Shown here piece by piece: positions 57 through 35,141 of a DNA stretch of 37,957 nucleotides. Below the pieces are notes generated by a model, which worked only from the letters and a program-made list of their open reading frames with translations, made no database searches and was not told where the DNA came from. Each line of letters opens with the position of its first letter. The stretch's first letter is position 1. Both the position numbers and the translations under genes were made by a program. Origin of the DNA: a virus. Where the stretch lies: positions 1-37,957 of IMG/VR virus record IMGVR_UViG_3300029985_000091. One strand, written 5' to 3'.

Positions 57-203
57 TCATTCCCATCCTTCTGGGAGTTCCTTGCCAGTTTCCTCTTTGA
101 ACTGGCGATTCATGTCATCAATTACATCTTGGTCGGCGGGGCCGAAATCGGCGTTACAGCGGAACCACGACAAATATTCAAGTTCTGTTGCTGTTTCTTT
201 CAT
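57..203 (-). CDS. Small conserved phage protein (NADFGPAD type), 48 aa
   Basis: A 48-residue acidic protein. Its centre reads WFRCNADFGPADQDV and its end reads EETGKELPEGWE. I recognise this pattern (aromatic residue, NADFGPAD, then a C-terminal LPEG) from small proteins of unknown function in many tailed phages; no biochemical role can be named. The start is chosen because a consensus promoter (TTGACA, 17 bp, TACTAT) ends 6 bases before this ATG, so the mRNA should be leaderless. It is the last minus-strand gene in view. A short open minus-strand stretch continues to the window edge without a clear start codon. Confidence 0.8.
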   Translation of the reverse strand: MKETATELEYLSWFRCNADFGPADQDVIDDMNRQFKEETGKELPEGWE

Positions 204-209
204 AATTCA

Positions 210-238
210 ATAGTAAAGGAGTTTTCGGGATTTGTCAA
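210..238 (-). promoter_or_regulatory. Sigma-70 promoter for the 48-aa gene, leaderless type
   Basis: On the minus strand TTGACA lies at 238-233, followed by a 17-bp spacer and TACTAT at 215-210. Only six bases separate the -10 box from the ATG at 203, so the expected start point coincides with the start codon. Confidence 0.8.
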
Positions 239-255
239 GGAGAAATTGGTGCAAA

Positions 256-331
256 TGGTGGACCTATCTGGAATTAAACCAGAAACTCAAGGGTAGAAAC
301 CTAGCGCGATATTCATTTTCACCATAAGTCC
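256..331 (-). tRNA. tRNA-Arg (anticodon TCT), CCA encoded
   Basis: Read on the minus strand, the acceptor GGACTTA pairs with TAGGTCC (one G-U), followed by discriminator A and an encoded CCA (258-256). The D stem is GTGA/TCGC. The anticodon stem CTAGG/CCTTG has one T-T mismatch, with loop TTTCTAC giving anticodon TCT. The T stem TCTGG/CCAGA is perfect, with loop TTTAATT. The body is 73 nt. It would read AGA/AGG codons. It lies 4 bases downstream of tRNA-Gln. Confidence 0.75.
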
Positions 332-335
332 GAAA

Positions 336-411
336 TGGAAGATGCTTTTGGGGTCGAGCCAAAACGTGTTCTTTCAAAGAGAACCATGCAGAGCCGCTAC
401 ATCAAGCATCT
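336..411 (-). tRNA. tRNA-Gln (anticodon TTG), CCA encoded
   Basis: On the minus strand the acceptor AGATGCT/AGCATCT is a perfect 7-bp helix followed by T73 and CCA. The D arm is ATGT/GCAT with a GG in the loop. The anticodon stem GTTCT/AGAAC is perfect with loop CTTTGAA (anticodon TTG). The T stem is TTTGG/CCAAA with loop CTCGACC, where position 54 is C rather than T. It sits 7 bases after the stop of the zinc-ribbon gene and 4 bases before tRNA-Arg, so it is probably cotranscribed with both. Confidence 0.85.
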
Positions 412-418
412 ATAAAAA

Positions 419-808: not shown

Positions 809-823
809 ACGATTATATTACAC

Positions 824-3651: not shown

Positions 3652-3680
3652 ATAGTAGGGTATTTTTCGGGAAAAGTCAA
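3652..3680 (-). promoter_or_regulatory. Sigma-70 promoter, leaderless type
   Basis: TTGACT (3680-3675), a 17-bp spacer and TACTAT (3657-3652) end five bases before the ATG at 3646. The -35 box overlaps the stop codon of the PAS gene. Confidence 0.75.
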
Positions 3681-4559: not shown

Positions 4560-5447
4560 TTATTTTAAATTGAGAAACTCTTCTATCTGCCAGAAGTGGT
4601 TTTTGACCCATTCGCGGCCAAGTTCGTCGCGTTGTTGAAGTGCTTTAGGAGAAGTGTCATCAAGTCCCAGAGGATTTTTTACTTTTGGGTTAATGGAAAG
4701 ATAGTTGTCTCCGAGGATTTGTTTGCATTGATAATCTGAATCTTCTGTTCCGCCCGTAAAGAGAATTGAGAATACTTTAATTAAATTTTTTAAAGCACCG
4801 CAGTTGATATACTGCTCTGGATTATCTTTTGCGGGGACATCGCCGCATCCTAGAGAAAGAATTTTAATGTCTTTTAAATCCCAACCCAACTTAACAGCTT
4901 CGGCCAAAGCGCAAACTTCAGGGTTGTTCGCGAACAATCCACCATCAAAAAATACATGACCGTCGTGTTTGAACGCAGGAAAATATAGTGGGGCGCTGCT
5001 GCTGGCACGAGTCGCTACCCAAAGAGGATAATCTTTGCCGTCAAAACTCTTAAAAAAGAAAGGGTCTTCTGAAACGAGGTCAAAAGTCGGGATAAGTAAT
5101 TTTGTTTTGCAATCTTTGAGGGTTTTGTTCCCGAATTTTCCTTTAAGAATTCCTTCTATAATACCAGCTTTATACTTTGGAGAAAACAAGCCGAAATCAT
5201 ACCATTCTCTATGAAAAATTACAGGAGCATTATCAGAAAAGAATTGGAGGCAGTCTTGACTAGGAATTCCAATAGATAAAAGCCCTCCGACAATCGCCCC
5301 GATGCTAGTGCCGCTAATCATCGAAAATATATCACAACATTTTTTACCGCTAACCCGTTCAATTTCTTTGATTAGGTGTGTTGGTAACTCGCCATTGCAG
5401 CCACCTCCCGAAATTATTAGAATGTATTTAGTTTTCGACTTCTTCAC
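4560..5447 (-). CDS. Patatin-like phospholipase, ~295 aa
   Basis: A patatin/FabD-type acyl hydrolase. It has the oxyanion loop SGGGCNGE (about 13-20), the nucleophile elbow GTSIG (Ser about 48) and the catalytic DGG (Asp about 168) followed by LFANNP, so the Ser-Asp dyad is complete. Members cleave acyl chains from phospholipids; bacterial relatives include toxins and CapV-type CBASS effectors. I place the start at the GTG at 5447, before KKSKTKYILIISGGG. This removes a 37-base overlap with the beta-barrel gene and puts a GTGTAAT box a few bases upstream; an in-frame ATG at 5501 would add 18 residues. Role inferred: membrane attack in lysis, or a defence-type effector. Confidence 0.8.
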   Translation of the reverse strand: MKKSKTKYILIISGGGCNGELPTHLIKEIERVSGKKCCDIFSMISGTSIGAIVGGLLSIGIPSQDCLQFFSDNAPVIFHREWYDFGLFSPKYKAGIIEGILKGKFGNKTLKDCKTKLLIPTFDLVSEDPFFFKSFDGKDYPLWVATRASSSAPLYFPAFKHDGHVFFDGGLFANNPEVCALAEAVKLGWDLKDIKILSLGCGDVPAKDNPEQYINCGALKNLIKVFSILFTGGTEDSDYQCKQILGDNYLSINPKVKNPLGLDDTSPKALQQRDELGREWVKNHFWQIEEFLNLK

Positions 5448-5464
5448 CCAACTAATTACACTAA

Positions 5465-5956
5465 CTAAAAAGTCCAACTCGCGCCAAATGCCAAAATCCA
5501 TCCATTATAATTAGAAATTTTCCCAATAGCCACGCCCCCCGTGAGTATTCTTTTGGTGAATTGTTTTTTATATATAAGTCCAGCGAAGTCTTGGTTAATA
5601 AGTGTAGAAGTTTTTAAATCCAAGCCCCCGCCTGATTCAACATAAGCATAAAGGCTCGTTCGCGGAATCTCTACACCGATTTTGCCGTTGATATTGGCGT
5701 TGTAAAAACTACCCATGTAGGCTATAGAAGTACCGATTCCAAACGCGGAATTTGTCGCACCAATAGGTGTATATAAATCTACAAAACCGCCGACTTGTCT
5801 AGTGGAGAAACCATACAGACCCCCGACTTCCACTGTATATTCACGATTCGTAAAGGGCTGCTCTAATTTGAGTTCGAGATTAGAAAAGGCGTTGGTTTGA
5901 GCAAAGCAGGAAAAACCCATCAATAGAATTAAAATAATCAAATTAAAGAGTTTCAT
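5465..5956 (-). CDS. Secreted outer-membrane beta-barrel-like protein, 163 aa
   Basis: The N-terminus MKLFNLIILILLMGFSCFAQ is a clear signal peptide with probable cleavage after FAQ. The rest is made of short Gly-rich alternating strands (YTVEVGGLYGF, GIGTSIAYMGSF, LYAYVESGGG, LTGGVAIGKI). It ends ILAFGASWTF with a C-terminal Phe, the usual insertion signal of Gram-negative outer-membrane barrels; about eight strands would fit the length. A phage-coded outer-membrane protein may alter the receptor surface, block superinfection or aid lysis; none is shown. The promoter TATAAT lies five bases before the ATG, right after a terminator. Confidence 0.65.
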   Translation of the reverse strand: MKLFNLIILILLMGFSCFAQTNAFSNLELKLEQPFTNREYTVEVGGLYGFSTRQVGGFVDLYTPIGATNSAFGIGTSIAYMGSFYNANINGKIGVEIPRTSLYAYVESGGGLDLKTSTLINQDFAGLIYKKQFTKRILTGGVAIGKISNYNGWILAFGASWTF

Positions 5957-5961: not shown

Positions 5962-5967
5962 ATTATA
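5962..5967 (-). promoter_or_regulatory. -10 box (TATAAT) of the beta-barrel gene
   Basis: A perfect TATAAT on the minus strand, five bases before the ATG at 5956, just downstream of the terminator hairpin at 5970-6000. No clear TTGACA is seen at the expected distance, which falls in the hairpin. Confidence 0.6.
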
Positions 5968-6315: not shown

Positions 6316-6756
6316 TTATTGGGTAATGTTTGTTGAAACGGTTGATGTGCTAGTCGCCTCAGATGTAATCTCTGTTAAAGCGGAAGATAGCGTGTTACTA
6401 GCTGACTGCAAATCTGCAAACGATGCATTCGTTTCTGAAAAGTATTTGACATAAGCGGTTCTGGCAATATTAATATCAGAGAGGATTTTTGGAGTCTTAG
6501 CACGAATCGTATTGGCCAAAGCAAATGTTGCGGGAGAATTCGTTTTGAAATAATTTTCATTCGCAGTCTCAAAAACCAAAAACGCATCGATGGACGAATA
6601 TGAGGAAATTACTACAGAATCTACGTTGTAGAGGAAGGCGTCATTCGAATAAGCGCCGTTAGGAGCCAAATTAGCATTCGTCGCACACCCCGCGATTCCA
6701 AAACCAACAGCCGCCAGCATCAGGGCAAACGAGAGAGAAATGAGGATTTTTTTCAT
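6316..6756 (-). CDS. Secreted lipoprotein, 146 aa
   Basis: From the ATG at 6756 the N-terminus MKKILISLSFALMLAAV leads to a lipobox (GIAGC) with the lipidated Cys at about residue 24, so this should be a lipoprotein exported and acylated by the host. The mature part is Ala/Ser/Thr-rich and helical (TIRAKTPKILSDINIARTAYV), without a known enzymatic motif. An earlier in-frame start would put the promoter inside the gene, so the later ATG is preferred: TTGACA-17-AATAAT ends seven bases before it. Phage lipoproteins often block superinfection or act as outer spanins; no inner-spanin partner is visible. Confidence 0.7.
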   Translation of the reverse strand: MKKILISLSFALMLAAVGFGIAGCATNANLAPNGAYSNDAFLYNVDSVVISSYSSIDAFLVFETANENYFKTNSPATFALANTIRAKTPKILSDINIARTAYVKYFSETNASFADLQSASNTLSSALTEITSEATSTSTVSTNITQ

Positions 6757-6763: not shown

Positions 6764-6792
6764 ATTATTGCATACTTTTCGGAAAATGTCAA
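6764..6792 (-). promoter_or_regulatory. Sigma-70 promoter of the lipoprotein gene
   Basis: TTGACA (6792-6787), a 17-bp spacer and AATAAT (6769-6764), with seven bases to the ATG at 6756: again a leaderless arrangement. Confidence 0.75.
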
Positions 6793-7140: not shown

Positions 7141-7188
7141 ATTATAGTAGAAATAAGAGAAAGTATAAAGGACAATTTTGTGTAATAT
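7141..7188. promoter_or_regulatory. Divergent promoter pair between 7135 (minus) and 7195 (plus)
   Basis: On the minus strand TATAAT (7146-7141) stands five bases before the ATG at 7135. On the plus strand TAATAT (7183-7188), within GTGTAATAT, stands six bases before the ATG at 7195. The 59-base gap thus drives both gene blocks, and both transcripts should be leaderless. Confidence 0.65.
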
Positions 7189-7917: not shown

Positions 7918-7934
7918 GTGTAATTATCCATATT

Positions 7935-9123: not shown

Positions 9124-9129
9124 ATTATA
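9124..9129 (-). promoter_or_regulatory. -10 box (TATAAT) of the 94-aa gene
   Basis: Perfect TATAAT on the minus strand, five bases before the ATG at 9118; it lies in the only gap (27 bases) between this gene and the SLOG gene. No strong -35 box is seen. Confidence 0.55.
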
Positions 9130-10223: not shown

Positions 10224-10896
10224 TTTTTGCCCCTTTCTTTTGATTATCCTCTTCCCATAGCGGTTGTGTATTAGTATGATAAAAACAGATTTTTTGTTGT
10301 TCTGGGTCTGTTAAATCAAACGATGATAAGGGCTTTATGTGGTCGATGTCCCATTCACCATAATTTTCCCAAGCCATCCCCTTTATAAACTTATCTTTAA
10401 TATACTCTCTGTATTCCATAATAGGAATACCTAAAAGAGCTTCTGCATAATTCTTGTTTTTCTCCCCAGTCTGCCCCTTAATAGCTTCTCTAATTTTACA
10501 AGAAATTAACATTCCCATACAAAAACTGGGATTTTTTCTCAGTGCATCACGCCGATTGCGATTTAACCTTTCTCTATTTGCTGGAATTTTTAGATATTCT
10601 CTCGTACATTCTGTACAACACTTACGGCAACGAGCAGATATTTTACCTTTTTTAGAATCCCTCATTGGAAAATCTTTAGGTTTTTTATATTTCTTGCAAT
10701 GTCCGCAAATCTTCCTACCCTTTTCGTCAAACCAAATCTTTTTTAACCCAAGAAGATGCGCCCTCGTACAGATTTGTTGTGGAGTAAAACCTAATTGTGT
10801 AGCACAAAAAAGAGAACCCTTATGAGTATAATGCTCTTCTATAAATGCCGACTGCTCTTGTGAAAAAATTCCTCCTTTATTTTTAATAATATACAT
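10213..10896 (-). CDS. HNH homing endonuclease, 227 aa
   Basis: Domain order: an N-terminal helix-turn-helix-like region (SLFCATQLGFTPQQICTRAH), a zinc ribbon (CGHCKKYK ... CRKCCTEC), a basic repeat-like linker (ANRERLNRNRRDALRKNP), and a C-terminal HNH nuclease with WDIDHIKPLSSFDL and CFYHTNTQPLWEEDNQKKG. The D-H and N residues are the expected metal/catalytic positions. It is a free-standing phage homing endonuclease. The ATG at 10896 (MYIIKNKGG) is preferred to one at 10923. Its ends overlap the sigma-factor gene and the 187-aa gene, so it looks inserted at the sigma-gene junction with little disruption. Confidence 0.9.
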   Translation of the reverse strand: MYIIKNKGGIFSQEQSAFIEEHYTHKGSLFCATQLGFTPQQICTRAHLLGLKKIWFDEKGRKICGHCKKYKKPKDFPMRDSKKGKISARCRKCCTECTREYLKIPANRERLNRNRRDALRKNPSFCMGMLISCKIREAIKGQTGEKNKNYAEALLGIPIMEYREYIKDKFIKGMAWENYGEWDIDHIKPLSSFDLTDPEQQKICFYHTNTQPLWEEDNQKKGAKIVL

Positions 10897-11401
10897 AATC
10901 AGGAATGTTGTTCTCGCGCTCAATAATATTTCGCAAGTGTTTTTTGGCGTAAAAAAGGCGGGTTTTTGCGGAGTTAATTGGAATATGAAGAACGTCGGCG
11001 ATTTCTTTATAGGAGGATGAATTCTCCAAGACGATTTTGATAATAGCGTGATGCTTCTCGCTCAGGGATTTCATCGCGTTATGAATGAGTTTAACGCAGT
11101 CGTCGGTATGTATTTTTTGAAATACTTCTGGTTCATGTCCGCCGAAATCCACGTTTTCCATCCCCGAAAATCGGGCATTATTCCTCAACATTTTTGAGGT
11201 TTCGTGCTTGCAGATGGAGAGGAACCATGTATCAAAATGGCTTTTCCCCGAAAACGCGGGGAGATTTTTAAGGGCGTTCATTGTGGATTGCTGGATAATA
11301 TCGTCAAGGTCATTATCATTGATTTTGAAGTGGGAGACGAGGTAGGCGCGGGCTTTTTGCGAAGCCCCTTCTATTTTTATCGTAAATTCCGTATTTTCCA
11401 C
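10883..11401 (-). CDS. ECF-like RNA polymerase sigma factor, 172 aa
   Basis: Region 2 (about 15-85) includes DLDDIIQQSTMNALKNL and the HFDTWFLSICKHETSKMLR core/-10 binding helix. Region 4 (about 115-165) includes the helix-turn-helix SYKEIADVLHIPINSAKTRL. It lacks regions 1 and 3, as in ECF sigma factors, so it should redirect host RNA polymerase to phage promoters. I start at the GTG at 11401: it follows TTGACA-17-TATACT by six bases, and a start further upstream would put the promoter inside the gene. It overlaps the HNH gene by 14 bases. Confidence 0.85.
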   Translation of the reverse strand: MENTEFTIKIEGASQKARAYLVSHFKINDNDLDDIIQQSTMNALKNLPAFSGKSHFDTWFLSICKHETSKMLRNNARFSGMENVDFGGHEPEVFQKIHTDDCVKLIHNAMKSLSEKHHAIIKIVLENSSSYKEIADVLHIPINSAKTRLFYAKKHLRNIIERENNIPDYVYY

Positions 11402-11407: not shown

Positions 11408-11436
11408 AGTATAAGAGATTCTTCTTAAAATGTCAA
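11408..11436 (-). promoter_or_regulatory. Sigma-70 promoter of the ECF sigma gene
   Basis: TTGACA (11436-11431), a 17-bp spacer and TATACT (11413-11408), ending six bases before the GTG at 11401. The strong consensus suggests early transcription by the host sigma factor. Confidence 0.8.
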
Positions 11437-12960: not shown

Positions 12961-12975
12961 AAATTCTATTACACT

Positions 12976-17018: not shown

Positions 17019-17024
17019 ATTATA
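17019..17024 (-). promoter_or_regulatory. -10 box (TATAAT) of the 115-aa gene
   Basis: Perfect TATAAT on the minus strand, ending five bases before the ATG at 17013. Together with the plus-strand promoter at 17037-17066 it forms a divergent pair. Confidence 0.6.
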
Positions 17025-17556: not shown

Positions 17557-18145
17557 ATGGGCGAAGGATTATTGAATACTAAAATTTGTACGAAATGTGG
17601 AGAAGATAAGTCTCTTACAGATTATCATAAAGACAAACGGCAATCTAGCGGTCTTTCTTGTCGTTGTAAAACTTGTAGGATTCCCCAAAGCCGCCAGTAT
17701 TTTTTAAATAATAAAGAGAAGATTTTGACAAATAACAAAAACTATAGAAAGAAAAATAAAATCAAAATAGACGCCAATTATCAAATTTACAAGGAGGCTA
17801 ACAAAGATAAATTATCTGCTTACCGTAAACAGTTTTATTCTAATAATAAAGAAAGGCTTAAGAAGAAGAGTAATGATTATTACCGTCAAAATACTGAATC
17901 AATAGCAGTTAGAAATAAAGAATATACCTCTAAGAACCAAATTAAAATAAGAATTAATCAGAAGAAATATAGAGAAAGCCATCGTAAACAGCATTCAGAA
18001 TATAGTAAAAATAGAAGAAAATTTAGAGGCCGCTTTTTATACTAACCAACAGCCGCTATGGATTACGACGGAAATAGCCAAAGAGCATGGTGATATGACT
18101 ACAATTGGAAATATAAATAAAAGCAATAAAATATTCCATGAATAA
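17557..18145 (+). pseudogene. Decayed HNH homing endonuclease (HNH core deleted)
   Basis: An intact-looking 162-codon frame (17557-18045) carries the N-terminal zinc ribbon typical of phage HNH genes (KICTKCGEDKSLTDYH ... CRCKTC) and a long Lys/Asn/Tyr-rich array of short basic repeats, but ends without an HNH motif. Directly after, in another frame (18044-18145), comes NQQPLWITTEIAKEHGD followed by NINKSNK, which is the familiar C-terminal tail of such nucleases (N.QPLW...N..K). The catalytic DHI part is missing, so an internal deletion plus frameshift has probably killed the gene. The remnant overlaps the sigma-factor start. Confidence 0.75.
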
Positions 18146-18761
18146 TAACTCTAACATCACAAAATGGTCGGATAAACAACTTATTTCAGCGGTAAAGAAT
18201 GAAGGGAGCAGTGAAGCTTTTAGCGAAATTTGTCGGAAGTATGAAAATCTTTTTTATCACACTATTCATAAATATACATCAAGATTAACTAACGCGGGTA
18301 TTTGCCCGAAAGACATTTTTGATGAGAGAGATACTTTAATTTTACATTGTGTTAATACTTTTAAGCTCTCTAAGAAAACCAAACTTTCCTCTTGGATTGG
18401 GAATTACGCGCGTTATCTTTGTCTTAACAGCATTGCGGCCAGAAAACTTATAGTCCCCTCTTCAAGCGAAGAACTCCACGGTCACATCGAAGACAAGCAA
18501 ACTCACCACAATTATTTTGAGTCTCACAGAAATCTGGAAGGTAGCAAGGACTACATTTTTAATATATTATCTAAAATCCCCGATAAGAGAATTAAGAGGG
18601 TTTTTAAACTGCGCTATAGTGGCCGAAGCAAGATGATTTGGCAGGACGTGGCTGACAAATTAAAAACTACACCACAAACCGCAATGCTTTTACATAAAAA
18701 GGGACTTACTCTTCTCAGAGACGAGCTTAAAAGTTGTGAACATTTGGAAAATTTGGTTTAA
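18138..18761 (+). CDS. Second sigma-70-family sigma factor, 207 aa
   Basis: Region 2 (about 12-100) has SEAFSEICRKYENLFYHTI and an SSWIGNYARYLCLNSIA core-binding helix. Region 4 (about 140-200) has RVFKLRYSGRSKMIWQDVA followed by a helix-turn-helix KLKTTPQTAMLLHKKGLTLL. The linker is long and Ser/Glu/His-rich. It should recruit host RNA polymerase to phage promoters, perhaps a later class than the ECF factor at 10883-11401. The start overlaps the tail of the decayed HNH gene. Confidence 0.8.
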   Translation: MNNNSNITKWSDKQLISAVKNEGSSEAFSEICRKYENLFYHTIHKYTSRLTNAGICPKDIFDERDTLILHCVNTFKLSKKTKLSSWIGNYARYLCLNSIAARKLIVPSSSEELHGHIEDKQTHHNYFESHRNLEGSKDYIFNILSKIPDKRIKRVFKLRYSGRSKMIWQDVADKLKTTPQTAMLLHKKGLTLLRDELKSCEHLENLV

Positions 18762-21523: not shown

Positions 21524-21529
21524 TATAAT
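21524..21529 (+). promoter_or_regulatory. -10 box (TATAAT) of the 72-aa gene
   Basis: Perfect TATAAT ending four bases before the ATG at 21534; no clear -35 box. Leaderless arrangement. Confidence 0.55.
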
Positions 21530-21752: not shown

Positions 21753-21821
21753 TGATATTAGAGAGCCAAGGATAGAAAAAATGTATTTTCAAATCAAAAA
21801 AGACACAAAAACAAAACATAT

Positions 21822-22001: not shown

Positions 22002-22005
22002 TATT

Positions 22006-22368: not shown

Positions 22369-22371
22369 TCC

Positions 22372-22400
22372 TTGACATTTTACGAAATGTAGGCTAATAT
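22372..22400 (+). promoter_or_regulatory. Sigma-70 promoter, leaderless type
   Basis: TTGACA (22372-22377), a 17-bp spacer and TAATAT (22395-22400), six bases before the ATG at 22407. Confidence 0.8.
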
Positions 22401-22406
22401 TATCTT

Positions 22407-22601: not shown

Positions 22602-22603
22602 TT

Positions 22604-24299: not shown

Positions 24300-24501
24300 T
24301 TTTTTAGGCATAAAGATTATCCAATCCGACCTTTGTATGGAACGAAGACAGAATCGTTTTCCAAGGACAAAAAAGAAGCGCATCCGCAATAAGTGGGCCA
24401 AACAAGAAAAGAACTTTGTTTATAATCCTACAGCATATTATATAGGCAACGATTCACTGATTTGTCATCCGTCTTTTTATTATAAACTAACATTAATTTA
24501 A
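24280..24501 (+). CDS. Small basic phage protein, 73 aa
   Basis: The section ERRQNRFPRTKKKRIRNKWA is a strongly basic, Arg/Lys-rich motif (xxFPRxKxxRIxxKWAK) I know from short phage proteins of unknown function. The rest (NFVYNPTAYYIGNDSLICHP) is aromatic. Its start overlaps the GT90 end by 20 bases. It is probably a stand-alone DNA- or RNA-binding factor rather than part of the glycan pathway. Confidence 0.65.
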   Translation: MDSIIPNFLGIKIIQSDLCMERRQNRFPRTKKKRIRNKWAKQEKNFVYNPTAYYIGNDSLICHPSFYYKLTLI

Positions 24502-26197: not shown

Positions 26198-27120
26198 AAA
26201 CAGTACTTTTTATTAACCATCGCGAAAAAGCGTGTGGAGTGTATCAATTCGGAAAAAGGGTAGGAAATATTTTTGCCAAAACCTCAGTCAATTATCGCGG
26301 ATTCTATTATGAGCCATACGACAAACTCAACTTTCGAACTCAAGTTAATGAACTCAAACCCGACATTATAATCTACAATTATCTCCCTGATACTATGCCT
26401 TGGTTCGGGGCTTATGAGTTAAACTACTGCCGCGCGAAAGGTATTAAGCAAGGACTATTAGTTCACAATGTAGGATACGCTCACGTCTTCGATTTTTACT
26501 TACATCAAATCCCCGAATACCCGGAAAATGGAAATAATTACGCGCTCCCGCGACCTTTATTTAAGTGGGATAAAACTCTCCCGCCGAATGGCAAATTAAC
26601 CATAGGAACCTTCGGTTTCGGATTTAAGGTGAAGCGTTTTCAGGATATTTGTAAATTAGTAAACGCGCAAATTTATGAACCCGTGGATTTGAAAATGCAT
26701 ATGACTCTTTCGCATTTTATTCCCAATAAGAACGAACTGGAAGAGATTAAAGCCGAGTGTCGCAGCCTCATCACTAGACCCTATATCAATCTCGTTTTCA
26801 GTGAAGAATTTTTGGATGACGATGGGCTTTTGACGTTTTTGGCGGGGAATGATTTAAATATTTACCTCTACCAGTATTACGATAATTACAACGGAATTTC
26901 CGGTGTGACGGATTACTTTTTATCAGTAAGAAAGCCAATCGCCATCTGTAAAAGCAGCATGTTTTCCCATATAAATCGCGTAAAACCCTCGATTTGTGTG
27001 GAAGAAACACCCCTTAAGGAAATAATTAAAAATGGTTTCGCGCCGCTTCAACCGCTCTACGACGCTTGGAGCCATGAAAATTTCACAAAACATATTGAAA
27101 ATGTCCTTGAAAGAATATAA
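26194..27120 (+). CDS. GT-B-like glycosyltransferase-like protein, 308 aa
   Basis: Starts MKTVLFINHREKACGVYQFG, an opening that fits a GT-B Rossmann half (a GVYQFG loop where GT4 enzymes have GG). It continues with KPDIIIYNYLPDTMPWFG, then NGKLTIGTFGFGFKVKRF at the start of the second half, and GNDLNIYLYQYYDNYNGISG with VRKPIAICKSSMF near the nucleotide site. Glycosyltransferase function is inferred from layout and context, not from a clear catalytic motif. ATGA overlap with the upstream gene. Confidence 0.5.
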   Translation: MKTVLFINHREKACGVYQFGKRVGNIFAKTSVNYRGFYYEPYDKLNFRTQVNELKPDIIIYNYLPDTMPWFGAYELNYCRAKGIKQGLLVHNVGYAHVFDFYLHQIPEYPENGNNYALPRPLFKWDKTLPPNGKLTIGTFGFGFKVKRFQDICKLVNAQIYEPVDLKMHMTLSHFIPNKNELEEIKAECRSLITRPYINLVFSEEFLDDDGLLTFLAGNDLNIYLYQYYDNYNGISGVTDYFLSVRKPIAICKSSMFSHINRVKPSICVEETPLKEIIKNGFAPLQPLYDAWSHENFTKHIENVLERI

Positions 27121-27121
27121 T
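27116..27121 (+). promoter_or_regulatory. -10 box (TATAAT) of the C-methyltransferase gene
   Basis: Perfect TATAAT that overlaps the stop of the preceding gene and ends six bases before the ATG at 27128. Confidence 0.5.
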
Positions 27122-27127
27122 AATAGC

Positions 27128-28354: not shown

Positions 28355-28965
28355 CACAATACTACTCACAGGCCGAACAAGATAAGTGGGTATGCGAAAT
28401 TCTTGACTTTAAGAAAGACGGATACTTCGTTGAAATCGGCGCGTATGACGGAATAGAATCCAGCAACACTTACTTCGTCGAAAAAGAACTCGGATGGAAG
28501 GGTATCTGCATCGAACCCGCGCCTCACATCTTTGACAAACTCGCCGCCAACCGCAAAAGCGTCAATCTTAAAGTCGCGGTGATGGATTATAAGGGAACGA
28601 TTTACTTCGGGGAAGACACCGTTTCTGAAACTCCTAACCGTCATCTCGTAGATTGCGATACCTTGGATAACCTTCTGACGGCCAATAACGCGCCCCTAAA
28701 TATTGATTATATGTCCGTGGATATCGAGGGTTGTGAATACCGAGCCTTGAAAGATTTTCCGTTTAATAAGTGGAACGTAACCCTGCTTACGATTGAGCAC
28801 AACTCTTACAAAGACGGCCCCGAAAAGAAGAACCAGCTTTTCGAACTACTAACTAACAGGGGATTTATGAGAATTGTTGATGATGCAAAAGACCCGCGAG
28901 GACTTCCGTTTGAGGATTGGTATGTAAATAAAAGTTTTTTGGATAAAATCCCTCTAATCGTCTAA
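28351..28965 (+). CDS. FkbM-family methyltransferase, 204 aa
   Basis: Contains YFVEIGAYDGIESSNTYFVE and KELGWKGICIEPAPHIFDKL, the standard FkbM opening, then the DCDTLDNLL and IDYMSVDIEGCEYRALK core, in which VDIEGxE is intact (unlike the first FkbM gene). It should methylate a hydroxyl on a sugar or other small acceptor. It is coupled to the C-methyltransferase by ATGA. It is distinct from the 20792 gene, so the glycan may carry more than one methyl group. Confidence 0.85.
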   Translation: MTQYYSQAEQDKWVCEILDFKKDGYFVEIGAYDGIESSNTYFVEKELGWKGICIEPAPHIFDKLAANRKSVNLKVAVMDYKGTIYFGEDTVSETPNRHLVDCDTLDNLLTANNAPLNIDYMSVDIEGCEYRALKDFPFNKWNVTLLTIEHNSYKDGPEKKNQLFELLTNRGFMRIVDDAKDPRGLPFEDWYVNKSFLDKIPLIV

Positions 28966-28971
28966 TATAAT
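28966..28971 (+). promoter_or_regulatory. -10 box (TATAAT) of the Gmd-type gene
   Basis: Perfect TATAAT five bases before the ATG at 28977. No distinct TTGACA is seen. Confidence 0.6.
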
Positions 28972-28976
28972 GATAC

Positions 28977-30038
28977 ATGAAAATGAATAATATAGCCCTT
29001 ATAACTGGTGCAAATGGTATGGACGCGAAAGCTTTAACAAGACTTTTGTTAAGTAAAGATTATAAAGTTATTTTAACCTATAGGCGTAGCACATATTGGG
29101 ATATCAGTAAAATGAAATCTCTTTTTCAAGATGAGTTGACTAAATATCCAAATTCCGAACTATATTTTGAGCCATGTGACATCTCTGACCAGAATAGCGT
29201 CAATGAATGTCTTAAGTCAACACTTAAAAGACACAGTAGGATTGATGAGTTATATCTTCTTGCAGCCAATTCACACGTCGGAGAGTCTTTCAAAAATAAA
29301 GAATTATGTATTTTAGTTAATGGTCAGAGCGTATATTTTTTTCTTGAATGTCTTAAGAATTTTAGCCCCAGCACTCGAACGTATTTCGCGGGAACCAGCG
29401 AACTAATTGGCGGGATAGAAAGCGGGTCATTTAATGAAAATACCCCTTGGAATCCTAGAAGTGCATATTCAATTGGGAAAGAGTTAGGGGCAAGATGGAT
29501 GAATTTCTATCGCGATTCTACCGATATAGGTATGTTTTGTTGTGTGGGTATTTTGGGGAATCACTCCAATTGTGAAAGAACTCTGGACTTTGCTGTCAAA
29601 AAAATTACCAATACAGCAGCTAGAATTGCGCTCGGAAAGCAGGATAAACTAAAACTAGGACATTTAGAGTGGGCTAGAGACGAAAGTTGGGCGGACTTTT
29701 CTTGTGAGGGTATGTGGCAAATGTTACAGCAAGAGAAACCAGAAAATTACGTCCTAGGCAATGGAATCGCGAATTGGGGAACCAGTTATGTAGATTTGGC
29801 ATTTAAACATTTTAATCTTGATTGGCATGACTATGTTGAATTTGATAAAACGCTGCTTCGGCCAAATGAAGTGGTTCGTCTTGTCGCGGATTCAACCAAA
29901 GCCCAACAAAAACTCGGCTGGATTCCCGAAAGAATCTCGTTCAAACAGCACATTGACCTCATGTGTGATTTTGACTATCAGCTTGAACAAGGGTTAAATC
30001 CCAAACGCCCCGACGTTTTTAACTTGACAAAATCTTAA
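28977..30038 (+). CDS. gmd: GDP-mannose 4,6-dehydratase-like (Gmd family), 353 aa
   Basis: A short-chain dehydratase of the Gmd family: TGANGMDAKAL (NAD(P)-binding GxxG loop, about 10-20), LLAANSHVGESF, GTSELIGG, the active-site YSIGK, NHSNCERTLDFAVKKIT, and ARDESWADF at the positions used for GDP-mannose. The reaction is GDP-mannose to GDP-4-keto-6-deoxymannose, precursor of GDP-fucose, GDP-rhamnose and perosamine. No fucose synthase or aminotransferase is in view. With the C-methyltransferase upstream it could start a branched or 6-deoxy sugar path. The symbol is by family only. Confidence 0.8.
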   Translation: MKMNNIALITGANGMDAKALTRLLLSKDYKVILTYRRSTYWDISKMKSLFQDELTKYPNSELYFEPCDISDQNSVNECLKSTLKRHSRIDELYLLAANSHVGESFKNKELCILVNGQSVYFFLECLKNFSPSTRTYFAGTSELIGGIESGSFNENTPWNPRSAYSIGKELGARWMNFYRDSTDIGMFCCVGILGNHSNCERTLDFAVKKITNTAARIALGKQDKLKLGHLEWARDESWADFSCEGMWQMLQQEKPENYVLGNGIANWGTSYVDLAFKHFNLDWHDYVEFDKTLLRPNEVVRLVADSTKAQQKLGWIPERISFKQHIDLMCDFDYQLEQGLNPKRPDVFNLTKS

Positions 30039-30052
30039 AAATACCCTAATAT
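30024..30052 (+). promoter_or_regulatory. Sigma-70 promoter, near-leaderless
   Basis: TTGACA (30024-30029, inside the end of the Gmd-type gene), a 17-bp spacer and TAATAT (30047-30052), seven bases before the ATG at 30060. It opens the replication block. Confidence 0.8.
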
Positions 30053-30680: not shown

Positions 30681-32864
30681 ATGGCAAAAGAAAAAATACA
30701 AAAACCAGAAGAAAAAACAGATTCACAACAAGCAAGGATGCAAGCCGTTCTCGACAAAAACGGCCACTTCAACGACATTGAGCCTCAGTCATACGAAATA
30801 TCAACTGGTAGCCTTAAATTCGACCTACAACTCGGCGGGGGGTTGCATAACACCATTGTCCGTTGCGCGGGTCCAGCCGAAGCAGGTAAAGCACAGCCGA
30901 TTGATAGTAAAGTAATGACCCCCTATGGATGGAAATCAATCGGGGATTTGAAACAGAGCTGTCTTGTTATTGGTTCCGATGGGAAAGCAAAACAAGTTCT
31001 TAATATTTTCCCCCAAGGGATAAAAAAAATTAATAAGGTTATATTTGAAGACTATACAGAGGTTTATTGTTGCGATGAGCATCTGTGGCTGACCAGAAAC
31101 CAAAATGACAGAGAGCGAAATAAAAAAGGTTCAGTAAAGACGACCGGCTTTCTTAAGCAAACGTTAAAAATAGGCGACCATAAAAATCATTCCATTCCTT
31201 ATGTTAAGGCTGTCGAGTTTAAAACCCAAAATGAAAAACTACCAATAGACCCATATGTATTAGGGTTATTGCTTGGAGACGGTTCTTTTAGAAGGAAGAA
31301 TGAGGTTTCATATACTACGGCTGACCAACAATTGTTGAACGAGATAGACAAGAGACTTAAATTCTCTGATAAAAGAATTAAAAAAATAGGAAAAACAAGG
31401 AGATACGAATATTATATCTATTCCCCGAAATTAAGAAATACCCTTACCGAGATGGGATTATGGGGTAAGTTGTCTTATGATAAGTTTATTCCTGAAACTT
31501 ACTTATACTCCTCTATTCTCAACAGAAAAAAAATTCTACAGGGATTAATGGATACCGATGGCAATAATACTCGGCCAGATAAAAATAGTGGAGCGGAATT
31601 TTCTTCGACATCCATTAAATTAGCAGAACAAGTAGTCTTTTTAGTAAGAAGTTTAGGAGGGCGAGCCACTTACAAAAGCAGAATTACATCCTTTACTCAT
31701 AAAGGAATCAAAAAGAAAGGTCATATAAGTTACAGAGTTAGAATGAGTTTTTCAAATTTTTGTCCCTTTATTCTCGAACGCAAAAAAAATCTCTATCAAA
31801 ATAGAATTTTTGAATCCGAAAAACTGATAGTAGACATCCAACCCGCCGGAGAAAAAGAATGCGTCTGTATTCAAGTTGACTCACCAGATAATCTTTACCT
31901 AACCGAGGGATTTAATCTTACCCATAATACTTCATTTTCCCTAAATGTCGCTAAAATATTTCTTTCAGAAAAAAATCGGCGTGGAGTTTACTTTCTTTCA
32001 GATAAAGACCTTAGCGAAAACCTTCTTGAAAGATGTGGGGTAAAATTTGTGGATAAACTAGAGGATTGGGAAGATGGGACCTGTTATATTATTCGTACCC
32101 GCGAATATGAGACCGTTTGCAACACAATTAAAGGATTAATCGGTTCAGGCGGAAAATATTTTACAGATAAACAATACATTTTTGTTCTGGACTCGATGGA
32201 TAATTTTGCCCCTAGAGCGGCTTTCGACGTTGACTTTGGAGAGTCTTCTCAAAAAGGCGGAATTACGGCTATTACTTCACATTTTTTTAAATGTTTTAAT
32301 ATCTTATTGCCGCGACTTGGCCACACGACCATAATGATTTCTCAATTTCGAGATACAGTTCAAATTGGGAAACAGCAAGCCGCTTGGAAACAAATGAAGA
32401 CCTCCGGCGGAAGGAGTCTTGAACACGCCGCTTCTTGGGCTTTTGAATTTCTACCAGTTCAGAATGGTCAGATTGACATGTTTTGGGACGGCGAAATGTA
32501 TAAAAGCAAAAAGATTGGACATAACTGCATTATACGACTACAAAAAACGACCAACGAGACAACGGGAGAGACAGTAAGGTATCCTATTATCTATGGGCGT
32601 GAAGCCGGAAACTCAATATGGGTTGAAAAAGAATTGTATGATTTGGGTTTGTTTTATCAAATGTTAAAAAGCAAGGGTTCTTGGATTGAATTTGATTCAT
32701 CCGTTCTTAAAGAAATTCGAGAGATTAACCCCGATTTCCCCGAAAAGATACAGGGCGAAGATAAATGCGTAAAACTTTTTGAAGCCAACCCAAAAGTATC
32801 ACAGTTTCTATATACTAAAATTAAAAAATTAGTGGCCGGAGCAACTTCAAATGAGGCTCTATAA
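30681..32864 (+). CDS. RecA/UvsX-like recombinase with intein, 727-aa precursor
   Basis: The extein is a RecA-type recombinase: a YEISTGSLKFDLQLGGGL strand-loop, a Walker A (GPAEAGK|TS) split by the intein after Lys70, a Walker B region YIFVLDSMDNF, and SGGRSLEHAASWAFEFLP in the DNA-binding L2 area, ending helical and basic. It should coat single-stranded DNA and pair homologous strands for phage recombination-dependent replication. The spliced protein would be about 381 aa, near UvsX length. The ATP site exists only after splicing. Overlaps the next gene by 14 bases. Confidence 0.9.
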   Translation: MAKEKIQKPEEKTDSQQARMQAVLDKNGHFNDIEPQSYEISTGSLKFDLQLGGGLHNTIVRCAGPAEAGKAQPIDSKVMTPYGWKSIGDLKQSCLVIGSDGKAKQVLNIFPQGIKKINKVIFEDYTEVYCCDEHLWLTRNQNDRERNKKGSVKTTGFLKQTLKIGDHKNHSIPYVKAVEFKTQNEKLPIDPYVLGLLLGDGSFRRKNEVSYTTADQQLLNEIDKRLKFSDKRIKKIGKTRRYEYYIYSPKLRNTLTEMGLWGKLSYDKFIPETYLYSSILNRKKILQGLMDTDGNNTRPDKNSGAEFSSTSIKLAEQVVFLVRSLGGRATYKSRITSFTHKGIKKKGHISYRVRMSFSNFCPFILERKKNLYQNRIFESEKLIVDIQPAGEKECVCIQVDSPDNLYLTEGFNLTHNTSFSLNVAKIFLSEKNRRGVYFLSDKDLSENLLERCGVKFVDKLEDWEDGTCYIIRTREYETVCNTIKGLIGSGGKYFTDKQYIFVLDSMDNFAPRAAFDVDFGESSQKGGITAITSHFFKCFNILLPRLGHTTIMISQFRDTVQIGKQQAAWKQMKTSGGRSLEHAASWAFEFLPVQNGQIDMFWDGEMYKSKKIGHNCIIRLQKTTNETTGETVRYPIIYGREAGNSIWVEKELYDLGLFYQMLKSKGSWIEFDSSVLKEIREINPDFPEKIQGEDKCVKLFEANPKVSQFLYTKIKKLVAGATSNEAL
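30891..31928 (+). mobile_element. Ala1 (class 3-like) LAGLIDADG intein in RecA Walker A, 346 aa
   Basis: Residues 71-416 of the precursor. It starts with Ala71 (AQPIDSKVMTPYGWKSIGDL) instead of Cys/Ser and ends NLTHN before Thr417. Block B reads CDEHLWL with Trp136 two residues after His134, and block F reads ECVCIQVDSPDNLYLT with Cys396 in the place of the usual Asp. Ala1, block-B Trp and block-F Cys are marks of class 3 inteins, which use the block-F Cys as first nucleophile. Two LAGLIDADG motifs (VLGLLLGDGS, LQGLMDTDGN) mark a homing endonuclease. Confidence 0.85.
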
Positions 32865-33264
32865 TACATACGGTAAATTAGTTAATAAAAATGTCTCCCA
32901 ATATTTGATTGATTGGGACGGTAAGAGTCGGTCGAAGTTACAGTTTAATGTGAAGCAATTTCTTAAGCCATTTTGGTCTAATATGCTTTGCTACGAAGAA
33001 TTCCCTGCCTTCGGGTCTTTATTGAAGGTAGATATCGTTAATCTTACCCTAAAGATAGCAGTTGAAATTGACGGCCAGCAACATAATGAGATGGGATGGT
33101 TTCATAACAACAGCCCCTCTAAGTATCTCGCCGCAATTAAAAATGATATAAAAAAAGACGCTTGGCTTGAGAAGAACGAATTTCAGTTGGTCAGAATCAA
33201 TTATGATGAGGTAGACAAACTTTCCCCCGCCTTCTTCAAAGAAAAATTTGATATTACTTTGTAA
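32851..33264 (+). CDS. PD-(D/E)XK endonuclease (Vsr/DUF559-like), 137 aa
   Basis: The core LLKVDIVNLTLKIAVEIDGQ, followed by HNE, IKNDIKKDAWLEKN and FQLVRINYDEV, has the D-x(n)-E-I-D-G-Q-Q-H pattern of the Vsr-like/DUF559 nuclease group, where D and E bind Mg2+ and the final R/Y region completes the fold. The N-terminal third is basic and could grip DNA. It likely nicks or cuts DNA during recombination or repair, in line with its place right after recA (14-base overlap). It may also be a homing-type or host-DNA-degrading nuclease. Confidence 0.75.
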   Translation: MRLYNTYGKLVNKNVSQYLIDWDGKSRSKLQFNVKQFLKPFWSNMLCYEEFPAFGSLLKVDIVNLTLKIAVEIDGQQHNEMGWFHNNSPSKYLAAIKNDIKKDAWLEKNEFQLVRINYDEVDKLSPAFFKEKFDITL

Positions 33265-33324
33265 AGAGTAAATTACGCCATAACTTCTGAATATTTTCTG
33301 CTATAATAAAGTGTAATTATTAGT

Positions 33325-33618
33325 ATGAAAGAAGAACAACAAGCCCCGCAAAACGACGGCAGAATTCCAGAGGAAGTTCTTGACCAGTTGAACGAGCATT
33401 GTGTCGGCGGATTTATCGTTTTCTACTTTAACTCGGAGCATGGGCATCCCGAAGAGGCCGTTACTTTTGATTCCCCCGCTCATTGTTTGGCATTACAACA
33501 ACACATCGGAGCGTGGAGTAAAGCCATTTCAGACTTGGGCGTTGAAAGTCAAAAGGCCGAGTTTATGATGGGTATGGAACCGCCGGAAGACGGGGAAGAA
33601 GAATTTAAGGAAGCTTAA
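33325..33618 (+). CDS. Acidic hypothetical phage protein, 97 aa
   Basis: Starts KEEQQAPQNDGRIPEEVLDQ; the core LNEHCVGGFIVFYFNSEHGH with VTFDSPAHCLALQQHIGAWS forms a beta-sheet/helix pattern seen in small phage proteins of unknown function. It ends very acidic. A GTGTAATTAT box ends seven bases before its ATG, and a second TATAAT lies further upstream, so it may have its own promoter between the RecA and DnaB parts. Function unknown. Confidence 0.6.
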   Translation: MKEEQQAPQNDGRIPEEVLDQLNEHCVGGFIVFYFNSEHGHPEEAVTFDSPAHCLALQQHIGAWSKAISDLGVESQKAEFMMGMEPPEDGEEEFKEA

Positions 33619-33621
33619 TCC

Positions 33622-33650
33622 TTGACTTTTCCCGAAAATCCTGATATAGT
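33622..33650 (+). promoter_or_regulatory. Sigma-70 promoter of dnaB
   Basis: TTGACT (33622-33627), a 17-bp spacer and TATAGT (33645-33650), nine bases before the ATG at 33660; the leader would be only a few bases. Confidence 0.8.
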
Positions 33651-33659
33651 TATTAGGAA

Positions 33660-35141
33660 ATGTCACTATCTTCGATTCAAGTTGAACGCCACGCTCTCTC
33701 TGGACTTGTAAATAATCCCGATATCTTGGCAGAAGTCGAATCTTTCATGTCTGAGAAAGACTTCGTGGCTCAACCGCATAGTACGATTTATAGTGTCCTA
33801 AAATCTTCTTATCTCGCAAATGAGAAAATTGACAAGGTTTTACTGGCACAGAAAATTAAGAATTTGGGGATAGCGTTCAAAGGAGAAATTGATATTTTCT
33901 CTTACCTCGAAAGCATAACTTTTACACCTCTTACAAAAGACGCTACGATTAAGGCTTGTAAGGAATTAGTCAAGCTCCGCGTTTTAAGGGAAATAGATGG
34001 GACTTGCAATGAGATTCAATCCCACATTAAAAAATCAGTCAACCAAGAGCTTGAAGCTACGATAACCGAAATTGATGGAATCTACGGAGCAAAAATTAAT
34101 TCATTTGCAGTAGAAGATGGTGAAGTTGATTTGTTTGATGGGATGGAAGATTTGGTCGAGGAAAGGGGAAATAATCCCGTTGAAGAAACGGGCCTACAGA
34201 CGCCATACCCGGAATTTAATAGATTGTATGGGGGTCTACGTGCCGGAAATCTATATATTATCGCTGCAAGAGCCAAGGCTGGTAAAAGTAATTGGATTGA
34301 CGAAACAGCGAGTGAGATGAGTAAGATGCATAAATGTCCGGTCCTAATTTTAGACACCGAATTATCGACAGAAGAAGTCCAATTTAGAACGATAGCCGCA
34401 AAAAGTGGAGTTCCAATGTGGTTCATAGAAACTGGGAACTTTAGAAAGAATCCCGATTATCTTAAAAGAGTAAGAGACACCTTAAAAGGTATTAAAACAG
34501 AATATAATGTTACCCACTACGCCATTGGCAATAAAAAGATAGAACAAGTAATTTCTATAGCCCGCAGATGGTATTTAAAAAAAGTGGGTCGAGGTAATAA
34601 ATGTTTGATTTGTTTTGATTATATTAAAGCTTTGGATAAATTAGGCTACAACCAATCAGAGTTTGCCCTTATGGGCGAAAAAGTCGACGCCCTTAAGAAA
34701 CTCGCAGAAGAATTACAGTGTCCAGTCCTTTCTGCTGTGCAGTCAAACAGACAAGGAATTACGAGTAATAAAAGCGTAGAAGATTTAAACGATGATGAGA
34801 GTTCGGTGGCGGTCAGTGACAGAATCACATGGTATTCTAGCGGAGTTTGGATTTTAAGAAGGAGAGTCTCGGAAGAAATAGTTTTAGACACTATTGAATC
34901 AGGTTCACACAAATTAATTTGCTTGGTCAACAGATTCTGCGGGCGCGATGCCGCTGGCCATCAGGACAAAATTTTACGCGTCTTTCCCGATGGAAAGAAA
35001 AAGTATATAAATAACTTTGTAAATTTTGATATTAAGAATTTTAAAGTAACTGAATGTGGCTCGTTAAAAGATTCAATCGCTCGTGCTAATGCTCAGTTTT
35101 TAGTTTCGGATAAACCCGAAATAGTTGAAGAAACTTTATAA
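33660..35141 (+). CDS. dnaB: Replicative DnaB-family DNA helicase, 493 aa
   Basis: An N-terminal helical domain (about 1-140; QVERHALSGLVNNPDIL opening) and a RecA-like C-terminal motor. The latter has LYGGLRAGNLYIIAARAKAGKS (Walker A, about 203-210), a LILDTELSTEEVQFRTIAAK segment, CLICFDYIKAL as the Walker B strand, and CPVLSAVQSNRQG with the sensor Gln. It should ring the lagging strand and unwind the phage fork, loading with the primase encoded 1 kb downstream. No dnaC-like loader is in view. Length fits phage DnaB. It starts from a consensus promoter nine bases upstream. Confidence 0.92.
   Translation: MSLSSIQVERHALSGLVNNPDILAEVESFMSEKDFVAQPHSTIYSVLKSSYLANEKIDKVLLAQKIKNLGIAFKGEIDIFSYLESITFTPLTKDATIKACKELVKLRVLREIDGTCNEIQSHIKKSVNQELEATITEIDGIYGAKINSFAVEDGEVDLFDGMEDLVEERGNNPVEETGLQTPYPEFNRLYGGLRAGNLYIIAARAKAGKSNWIDETASEMSKMHKCPVLILDTELSTEEVQFRTIAAKSGVPMWFIETGNFRKNPDYLKRVRDTLKGIKTEYNVTHYAIGNKKIEQVISIARRWYLKKVGRGNKCLICFDYIKALDKLGYNQSEFALMGEKVDALKKLAEELQCPVLSAVQSNRQGITSNKSVEDLNDDESSVAVSDRITWYSSGVWILRRRVSEEIVLDTIESGSHKLICLVNRFCGRDAAGHQDKILRVFPDGKKKYINNFVNFDIKNFKVTECGSLKDSIARANAQFLVSDKPEIVEETL

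Follow-up and report, generated by a model that had tools for sequence, protein, structure and literature searches.

The window analysed here, the whole of a phage contig of 37,957 bases with 39% GC (IMG/VR virus record IMGVR_UViG_3300029985_000091), carries, among other genes, those for a DnaB-type helicase, a primase, a ribonucleotide reductase (RNR), a UvsX-kind recombinase and two sigma-like proteins, and a promoter-like motif lies directly before the start codon in 21 of its 64 called genes, about a third (Table 1). The motifs fall into two classes. Class 1 is a sigma-70-type -35/-10 pair or a TATAAT box alone, and class 2 is the heptamer GTGTAAT. An initial annotation of this DNA had described a genome-wide set of sigma-70 promoters placed so that transcripts should begin at or within a few bases of the start codon. 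Inspection of 60 nt upstream of each cited start revealed all 14 of its promoters as described, with a 17-nt spacer in each of the seven -35/-10 pairs. The observation is real and wider than that description; the share of genes concerned makes "genome-wide" too strong, and a single sigma-70 architecture does not accommodate the GTGTAAT motif. This second putative promoter class is the more novel part of the findings. The starts at 3646, 6756, 11401 and 27128 were chosen with the promoter in view, because they are not the first starts of their frames: each of the first three has a more upstream in-frame start once TTG counts as a start codon, and a longer ATG frame opens at 27032, 96 nt ahead of 27128.

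Table 1. Start-adjacent motifs and genes of the window (distance: nt separating the start codon from the 3' end of the -10 box)
Feature	Position	Strand	Context
-35 TTGACA/17/-10 TACTAT	210..238	-	6 nt before ATG 203 (gene of 48 aa)
-35 TTGACT/17/TACTAT	3652..3680	-	5 nt before ATG 3646
-35 TTGACA/17/AATAAT	6764..6792	-	7 nt before ATG 6756
-35 TTGACA/17/TATACT	11408..11436	-	6 nt before GTG 11401 (ECF sigma gene)
-35 TTGACA/17/TAATAT	22372..22400	+	6 nt before ATG 22407
-35 TTGACA/17/TAATAT	30024..30052	+	7 nt before ATG 30060
-35 TTGACT/17/TATAGT	33622..33650	+	9 nt before ATG 33660 (DnaB)
TATAAT	5962..5967	-	5 nt before ATG 5956
TATAAT	7141..7146	-	5 nt before ATG 7135
TATAAT	9124..9129	-	5 nt before ATG 9118
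TATAAT	17019..17024	-	5 nt before ATG 17013
TATAAT	21524..21529	+	4 nt before ATG 21534
TATAAT	27116..27121	+	6 nt before ATG 27128
TATAAT	28966..28971	+	5 nt before ATG 28977
GTGTAAT	817..823	-	8 nt before ATG 808; overlaps TTGAAA/18/TATAAT promoter 3 nt before ATG
GTGTAAA	2619..2625	-	8 nt before ATG 2610
GTGTAAA	4499..4505	-	6 nt before ATG 4492; all four orthologues have GTGTAAT or GTGTAAA at 10-11 nt
GTGTAAT	7180..7186	+	8 nt before ATG 7195; orthologues in G001, G002, G006 at 9-10 nt; G004 start not comparable
GTGTAAT	7918..7924	+	10 nt before ATG 7935; no copy seen in G001; 15 nt in G002, G006
GTGTAAT	12968..12974	-	7 nt before ATG 12960; directly downstream of TTGACA/17/TAATAT
GTGTAAT	33311..33317	+	7 nt before ATG 33325; G001 at 10 nt
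ECF-type sigma factor	10883..11401	-	TIGR02937 51.3 bits (cut-off 42.9); Pfam regions 2 and 4
Second sigma-like protein	18138..18761	+	PHROG 351 "RNA polymerase sigma factor", 7e-9; TIGR02937 24.6 bits, under cut-off
Patatin-like lipase	4560-5501		
RNR	13163-16099		Class II insertion domain and intein
Sugar- and methyl-transferring enzymes	among 19511-30038		
UvsX-kind recombinase	30681-32864		With intein
DnaB-type helicase	33660-35141		
Primase	36111-37007		Toprim domain

The lineage of the window was recovered by RNR and DnaB searches of IMG/VR. The RNR search gave 17 loci, and a DnaB alignment also gave 17, four of which fall in records already used, leaving 13 further loci. Many window genes are shared, at about 28-79% protein identity, with four close relatives, namely G001 (124 kb), G002 (82 kb), G006 (97 kb) and G004 (23 kb). 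G011 (209 kb) is a more distant relative, and G007 has little beyond the RNR in common with the window. Named phages match at 30% identity or less for DnaB among the 20 matches listed of 465 records, and at about 42% or below for the RNR among the 20 listed of 1312 records. Single-protein queries of viral contigs with DnaB, the lipoprotein at 6316-6756 and the methyltransferase at 27128 found no close relative.

For the statistics of class 1, genes were called blind, taking the first ATG of every non-overlapping frame of at least 60 codons, and TATAAT with at most one mismatch was compared with 200 dinucleotide shuffles. At 3-9 nt before the start, the box occurs in 13 of the 57 window genes versus 4.1 +/- 2.0 after shuffling (maximum 11), with a peak of seven at exactly 5 nt. 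The relatives gave 31/110 versus 11.7 (G001), 23/78 versus 7.9 (G002), 22/87 versus 8.8 (G006), 43/283 versus 14.1 (G011) and 7/30 versus 1.9 (G004), so that the window and these five phages beat all 200 shuffles; G007 (25/108 versus 16.4) lies inside the shuffle range. Pairs of -35 and -10 boxes ending 2-10 nt before ATG were set against a stricter position-specific null of 200 draws, which keeps the positional composition and hence part of the motif itself. Six of the 57 window genes have a pair against 0.68 expected (maximum 3). Five of these, at 3646, 6756, 22407, 30060 and 33660, are among the seven pairs of the initial annotation, and the sixth is at 808; the starts at 203 and 11401 are excluded by the blind rule, owing to gene length and a GTG start, respectively. 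Pairs also exceed this null in G011 (24/283 versus 2.96, maximum 10) and G007 (11/108 versus 2.35, maximum 7). The comparison proposed by the initial annotation, between -10-to-start distances and shuffled sequence, therefore leaves the two far apart, and the pairs go beyond the stricter null as well. Among the 13 further DnaB loci, 11 have at least one pair, with 19/242 genes versus about 2.7 summed over dinucleotide shuffles.

A test free of gene calls asked how often TATAAT, and its 19 anagrams, had an ATG 4-7 nt downstream that began a frame of 40 or more codons. In the window, 7/67 TATAAT copies were so placed versus 36/1369 anagrams (P=0.003), and the P values, each uncorrected for multiple testing, were 0.035 (G001), 0.007 (G006), 0.035 (G011), 0.052 (G002), 0.11 (G004) and 0.69 (G007). 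The controls, one phage of each kind represented by its first 50 kb, were T4 (P=0.8) and Thermus phage phiYS40 (P=0.22, not significant). With the blind gene calls, T4 has TATAAT at 4-9 nt once versus 5.5 after shuffling and no pairs in 77 genes, whereas phiYS40 has it 8 times versus 2.8, with a peak at 6 nt, and pairs in 4/59 genes versus 0.49 (maximum 3). The window has 11 boxes at 4-9 nt versus 3.8 (maximum 9), and 50 kb of Escherichia coli gave no pairs versus 0.11. Judging by these counts, the start-adjacency statistic picks phiYS40, for which leaderless transcripts have been reported, and rejects T4.

Orthologues at about 30-66% identity retain the promoter class, namely class 1 at DnaB, 30060, the ECF sigma gene and 17013, and class 2 at 7195, 4492 and 33325, and several hold the start-adjacent promoter despite changed intervening sequence. 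The DnaB pair lies 9 nt before the start in the window, 8 nt in G001 and 12 nt in G002 and G006. The 30060 pair lies at 7 nt in the window and at 9 nt, with an 18-nt spacer, in G001, G002 and G006. At the ECF sigma gene the distance is 6 nt in the window and in G001, with a weak -10 box (GAAAAT) in the latter, and 11 nt in G002 and G006, and the TATAAT before 17013 lies at 5 nt in the window and G001, 9 nt in G004 and 11 nt in G002 and G006. For class 2, the 33325 orthologues of G002 and G006 have GTGTAAT 1 nt before the first ATG and 10 nt before the next in-frame ATG. In many other compared orthologue pairs, the motif is present in neither member. The distance from a -10 box to the transcription start is usually 6-7 nt, and the conserved class 1 sites would therefore give leaders of 0 to about 6 nt.

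Two side observations concern class 1 sequences. A perfect TTGACA/18/TATAAT at 17037-17066 (+) falls where the gene directions diverge, at the 17 kb strand switch; no called start is near it, the next + strand ATG called being 17225. The spacers of the promoters before 203, 3646, 6756 and 33660 are alike (TTTTCC(C)GAAAA-like); a common operator of this form was considered and rejected, as its five copies in the window are not significant against 1.68 in shuffled sequence (maximum 6 of 50 shuffles).

GTGTAAT is the top-enriched 7-mer in the 45 nt before starts in the window, G001, G002 (tied with TGTGTAA) and G006, and not in G004, G007 or G011; its excess is lacking in G007, which shares the RNR. 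It occurs in 23 of 275 upstream regions pooled from the window, G001, G002 and G004, versus 0.73 expected. The five close phages have 33 copies no more than 45 nt from a start, and 21 of these copies end 7-11 nt before ATG. In the window, 6 of 11 copies lie at 5-11 nt, compared with 46/1370 for anagrams (P=8.5e-7). Single-base variants at 5-12 nt indicated that GT(G/A/C)TAA(T/A/G) is tolerated, with other changes near background, and the motif has no visible -35 partner. In the regions before genes of four Verrucomicrobiota genomes, its count is zero or no more than background (0/216, 0/190, 0/132 and 1/302; 1/840 in total), and stretches of phiYS40, T4 and E. coli gave 0/55, 0/62 and 0/45 (0/162 in total). 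In G001, terminase (7524), tape measure (51113) and virion or fibre-like proteins are encoded in a + strand block that reaches about 70 kb. Its 47 genes have 8 class 2 and no paired class 1 sites, versus 5 and 7 in the remaining 66 genes (P=0.015; with the strict motif, 7 and 0 versus 4 and 7, P=0.013), a contrast whose block limits were set after the genes were seen and which owes as much to the missing paired class 1 as to class 2. These features suggest that GTGTAAT is probably a phage-specific promoter.

Either of the two sigma-like proteins could read GTGTAAT, and our guess is the protein at 18138-18761 rather than the ECF-type factor. Its structural model (mean pLDDT 78, pTM 0.52) matched sigma factors or sigma-bearing complexes in nearly all of the 50 PDB matches listed, with a best E-value of 0.0011 and low whole-chain TM-scores of 0.3-0.4, and 29 of 32 hits in a profile search of PDB were sigma-factor sequences (best 0.0007). 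Orthologues of the gene occur in all four close relatives (G001, G002, G004 and G006), and G011 has one at 26% identity. Primary sigma factors depend most on the A in second position of the -10 box; a primary sigma factor should therefore read TGTAAT, in which this A is replaced by G, poorly. Kinship of the sigma-like protein with T4 gp55 was considered and dropped: gp55 matched PHROG 234, 34068, 12791 and two more, and the window and G001 proteins matched PHROG 351 and 36.

The near absence of Shine-Dalgarno (SD) sites stated in the initial annotation was borne out in the window, where SD-like strings precede 4/57 genes versus 2.5 +/- 1.7 after shuffling, a background level; the same rule found them in 22/77 genes of T4 and 16/59 of phiYS40. 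An upstream stop codon lies within 8 nt of the start in 1 of 21 window genes with a start-adjacent motif versus 15 of 43 without (P=0.012), and in 23/165 versus 172/422 genes pooled from the window, G001, G002, G004 and G011. These close stops in motif-free genes take the form of ATGA overlaps or TAA-TT(T)-ATG and similar junctions, and such inner genes may be translated by coupled re-initiation. Close spacing is also found in T4, in 27/79 genes without a motif, and the contrast in the window therefore says only that promoters mark operon heads. The junction TAA-TT(T)-ATG recurs in the window at 2859, 3377, 8830, 22604, 30453 and 30681, five of the six without an SD-like string by the script's rule.

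The host is probably a member of the Verrucomicrobiota, a phylum not usually listed among those with leaderless genes. In G001, a gene at 118791-119477, flanked by genes that also occur in the window, encodes a prepilin-like protein whose C-terminal domain is of the H-X9-DG type (20.7 bits, cut-off 19). At least 80 loci match it, a lower bound and not a census. Going by record titles, Verrucomicrobiota or Lentisphaerota account for 74 of the 80 matches kept, some of them from the same genome, and the other six comprise one Phycisphaerae, one Omnitrophota, one UBP3, one TA06 and two unnamed bacteria; the two lowest E-values among them belong to a Verrucomicrobiales metagenome-assembled genome and one labelled Pedosphaera parvula. 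The prepilin thus points away from the Deinococcota and Actinobacteria that the initial annotation offered as models of the host. Four partial Verrucomicrobiota samples of 128-263 genes each were analysed for start-adjacent signals. TATAAT at 4-9 nt was counted 14 times versus 6.1 after shuffling (maximum 11) in G019, 9 versus 4.8 (13) in G021, 5 versus 1.8 (5) in G016 and 1 versus 0.8 in G015, which is uninformative at 60% GC, and TANNNT 31 versus 20.6 (31), 23 versus 16.9 (27), 24 versus 10.1 (22) and 9 versus 4.5 (12) in the same order. The -10 boxes thus lie beyond all shuffles in G019 (TATAAT) and G016 (TANNNT), and are raised but inside the range in G021. The pairs are a weak signal, with 3, 3, 0 and 2 versus 0.90, 0.85, 0.12 and 0.25 after shuffling in the four genomes and none above the maximum. 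SD-like strings precede 11/230 genes versus 8.1 (G019), 8/192 versus 7.5 (G021), 4/128 versus 4.3 (G015) and 17/263 versus 11.2 (G016). The earlier proposal of a host that starts translation efficiently on leaderless messages agrees with what these samples of the phylum show. The lipoprotein at 6316-6756 was found in none of 288 Verrucomicrobiota genomes, and the window RNR in none of 14 genomes of the prepilin loci, most but not all of which are Verrucomicrobiota. A PAS-like protein, found in 12/288 genomes, was discarded as a host link, since its matches are weak and inside long proteins and hence reflect only the common PAS domain.

Leaderless expression, a prediction from sequence, is the best explanation of the start-adjacent promoters. 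The lineage would largely dispense with SD leaders, and because the promoter abuts the gene, many transcription units would start on the start codon itself or within a few bases upstream of it. Class 1, whether TTGACA-17-TATAAT or a lone TATAAT, with its end about 4-12 nt ahead of the start, would be read by the primary sigma factor of the host, its paired form lying mainly outside the virion-gene block. Class 2, GT(G/A/C)TAA(T/A/G) mostly 7-11 nt before the start with no visible -35, would serve virion genes along with some others, and its reader is probably an RNA polymerase carrying a phage-encoded sigma factor. Operon-internal genes whose starts overlap the preceding stop or directly adjoin it (ATGA; TAA-TT(T)-ATG) are probably translated by coupling. 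We consider this account as a whole, an SD-poor phage lineage with start-abutting promoters of two classes, coupled inner genes and a Verrucomicrobiota host, to be likely on the strength of the sequences compared. A more specific proposal is tentative, and we lean slightly away from it: phages of Verrucomicrobiota may have abandoned SD-led initiation at most operon heads and may pass from early to late expression by switching between the host TTGACA/TATAAT and a phage-sigma GTGTAAT alphabet. The G in place of the essential -10 A would hide the GTGTAAT box from the host polymerase, both alphabets would give leaderless or near-leaderless mRNAs, and stop-start coupling would read the inner genes.

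Several observations weigh against this account. Taken singly, the pairs of the close relatives lie inside the position-specific null (G001 7 versus 2.04, maximum 8; G002 3 versus 1.11, 5; G006 2 versus 1.07, 5; G004 2 versus 0.36, 2), and so does the -10 box alone in all phages except G011 (window 11 versus 7.0 +/- 2.3, maximum 14), which is why the -35/-10 pairs carry the case of the window. Two of the 13 DnaB loci (L072 and L076) have no pairs, and the 13 are not independent, because several closely resemble each other. Distances of up to 11-12 nt in the relatives imply a leader of about 5-6 nt, not none. SD-like strings exceed the shuffles in G006 (11/87 versus 3.1), G001 (8/110 versus 2.8), G002 (8/78 versus 2.3), G011 (24/283 versus 13.8) and G007 (7/108 versus 2.4), and 28 of the 64 window genes have neither motif nor coupling, three of them with an SD-like string. 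Class 2 is not restricted to virion genes, as the G001 counts (8/47 in the block, 5/66 elsewhere) show, and the classes are not separated in G006, with 6 class 2 and 1 paired class 1 sites in the block and 6 and 3 elsewhere (P=0.58). SD-like strings also follow the class 2 sites at G002 76964 and G006 96059. The host is predicted from one gene of one relative, the G001 prepilin. The lineage DnaB profile matched none of 387 Verrucomicrobiota genomes at 1e-40, and the lineage DnaB, by profile and patterns, was found nowhere in the genome contigs searched. Moreover, SD-like strings in the flanks of the prepilin loci, with Lentisphaerota and others included, exceed the shuffles in every GC bin (e.g., 13/87 versus 3.8), which means either that the phylum varies or that the start rule has an influence.

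The behaviour of the -10 hexamers alone would suit the view that the boxes are A/T-rich, unstructured translation-initiation regions resembling TATAAT by chance, as in SD-poor bacteria. Such regions leave unexplained the TTGAC(A/T) at 16-18 nt (6 versus 0.68), the TATAAT excess over anagrams in the window and the sequence-specific GTGTAAT, and we regard this view as quite improbable. The GTGTAAT motif itself might be a translational or RNA-processing signal of leadered mRNAs instead of a promoter, given that it lacks a visible -35 partner, that 7-11 nt is also the distance of a ribosome-binding site and that an SD-like string follows two of its copies. It occurs, however, in divergent intergenic regions at 7195 and at G001 121221, where the genes must own a promoter because the regions are divergent, its variants GT[G/A/C]TAA[T/A/G] include GTATAAT, a -10 box, and the phages encode sigma-like proteins, which together make an RNA signal unlikely.

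Reading of both classes by host sigma factors, with an alternative host factor for GTGTAAT and other roles for the phage sigma-like proteins, is likewise unlikely. Verrucomicrobiota have many ECF sigma factors, which would favour it; the background level of GTGTAAT in genes of that phylum (1/840), the lack in TGTAAT of the second-position A that primary sigma factors need, and the orthologues of the 18138 gene across the five relatives argue for a phage factor. As for the host, leaderless genes are known in Actinobacteria and Deinococcota from the parts of the literature consulted (PMC9581028, PMC12340547), but the G001 prepilin, with 74 of its 80 kept matches in Verrucomicrobiota or Lentisphaerota, and a partial OmpA-like match in G001 (26 bits, under the cut-off of 277), which hints at an outer membrane, make a host from either group highly improbable. 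The two-class, near-leaderless account with a Verrucomicrobiota host is thus the one that we prefer.

Other features of the window lie outside this argument. A block of glycosyltransferase-like, sugar epimerase and methyltransferase genes (window 19511-30038; G001 95200-108742) is partly kept across the lineage. Both inteins of the window, in the RNR and the UvsX-like recombinase, are of the LAGLIDADG type. The RNR insert is absent from G001, G002 and G004 (656 aa), and the RNR is long in G006 (966 aa) and G011 (1084 aa). The helicase and primase genes, whose ends overlap by a few bases in G001, G002 and G006, are separated in the window by the gene for a GIY-YIG homing endonuclease with NUMOD3 (35263-36126). 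The window has four tRNA genes in two pairs at 256-411 and 1648-1812 (Arg, Gln; Tyr, Ala), and none was found in G001, G006 and the examined part of G004; tRNAs played no part in host calling.

Few bacterial groups have well-described leaderless expression, and Thermus is the host of the one phage for which the literature that we found reports leaderless transcripts. If the present account is true, the sequences of uncultured phages suffice to signal that one more phylum is equipped to translate leaderless messages, and on the two-alphabet proposal Verrucomicrobiota would translate leaderless mRNAs on a large scale. It would also provide a phage-sigma promoter that can be tested and a start-adjacent -10 box as a possible signal for host prediction, and tools that expect SD sites may mis-call gene starts in such genomes. 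Leaderless transcription has been predicted in 21.6% of bacterial species, according to the portion of that survey seen (PMC9581028), and phage transcripts have been remarked, in a passage of another paper, to be often leaderless (PMC5312081). No publication recognisable as dealing with this lineage was found by titles and abstract openings in a literature whose subscription papers are mostly outside coverage. Sections of a study of SD-scarce Verrucomicrobia describe Akkermansia and IMCC26134 as such despite a conserved CCUCC in 16S rRNA, which fits the low SD signal of the four genomes sampled here; those sections treat SD pairing, not start-adjacent promoters or phages (PMC10783764).

Among known systems, phiYS40 resembles the window in its -10 peak near the start, at 6 nt. 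Its middle and late promoters have a single -10-like element read by the host sigma-A, and its leaderless transcripts were reportedly described by Sevostyanova et al. in 2007. Most of its middle and late transcripts are reported, in the excerpts available, to lack a leader (PMC3594737). It differs from the window in its Thermus host, its SD-like sites (16/59 genes) and its lack of GTGTAAT (0/55). The -10 box of leaderless genes in Deinococcus-Thermus, TANNNT a few bp upstream of the open reading frame with a spacing requirement, is a cellular trait of another phylum for which, as far as the source passages go, the -10 alone suffices, whereas in the window a -35 at 17-nt spacing is often present (PMC12340547). 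Two kinds of phage sigma system bear on the second class. Phages phiEco32 and 7-11 have enterobacterial hosts. In the sections consulted of the work on them, each encodes a sigma factor with its own promoters, the 7-11 motif having been inferred from the genome sequence (PMC4331800). They use host-type promoters for part of the genome and phage-sigma promoters for structural genes, an arrangement like the one proposed here; their motifs (TAATGTATA; tgtgatgttata) differ from GTGTAAT, and the word leaderless is absent from the text (PMC4331800). The comparison with T4 differs in that SD-like sites precede 22/77 of its genes and in that gp55 belongs to PHROG 234 and the window protein to PHROG 351. 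The late promoters of T4 (TATAAATA) are a short -10-only motif for virion genes read by gp55. Class 2, as proposed, resembles them in its short -10-only motif, its virion genes and its phage sigma factor, which in the window is a predicted reader.

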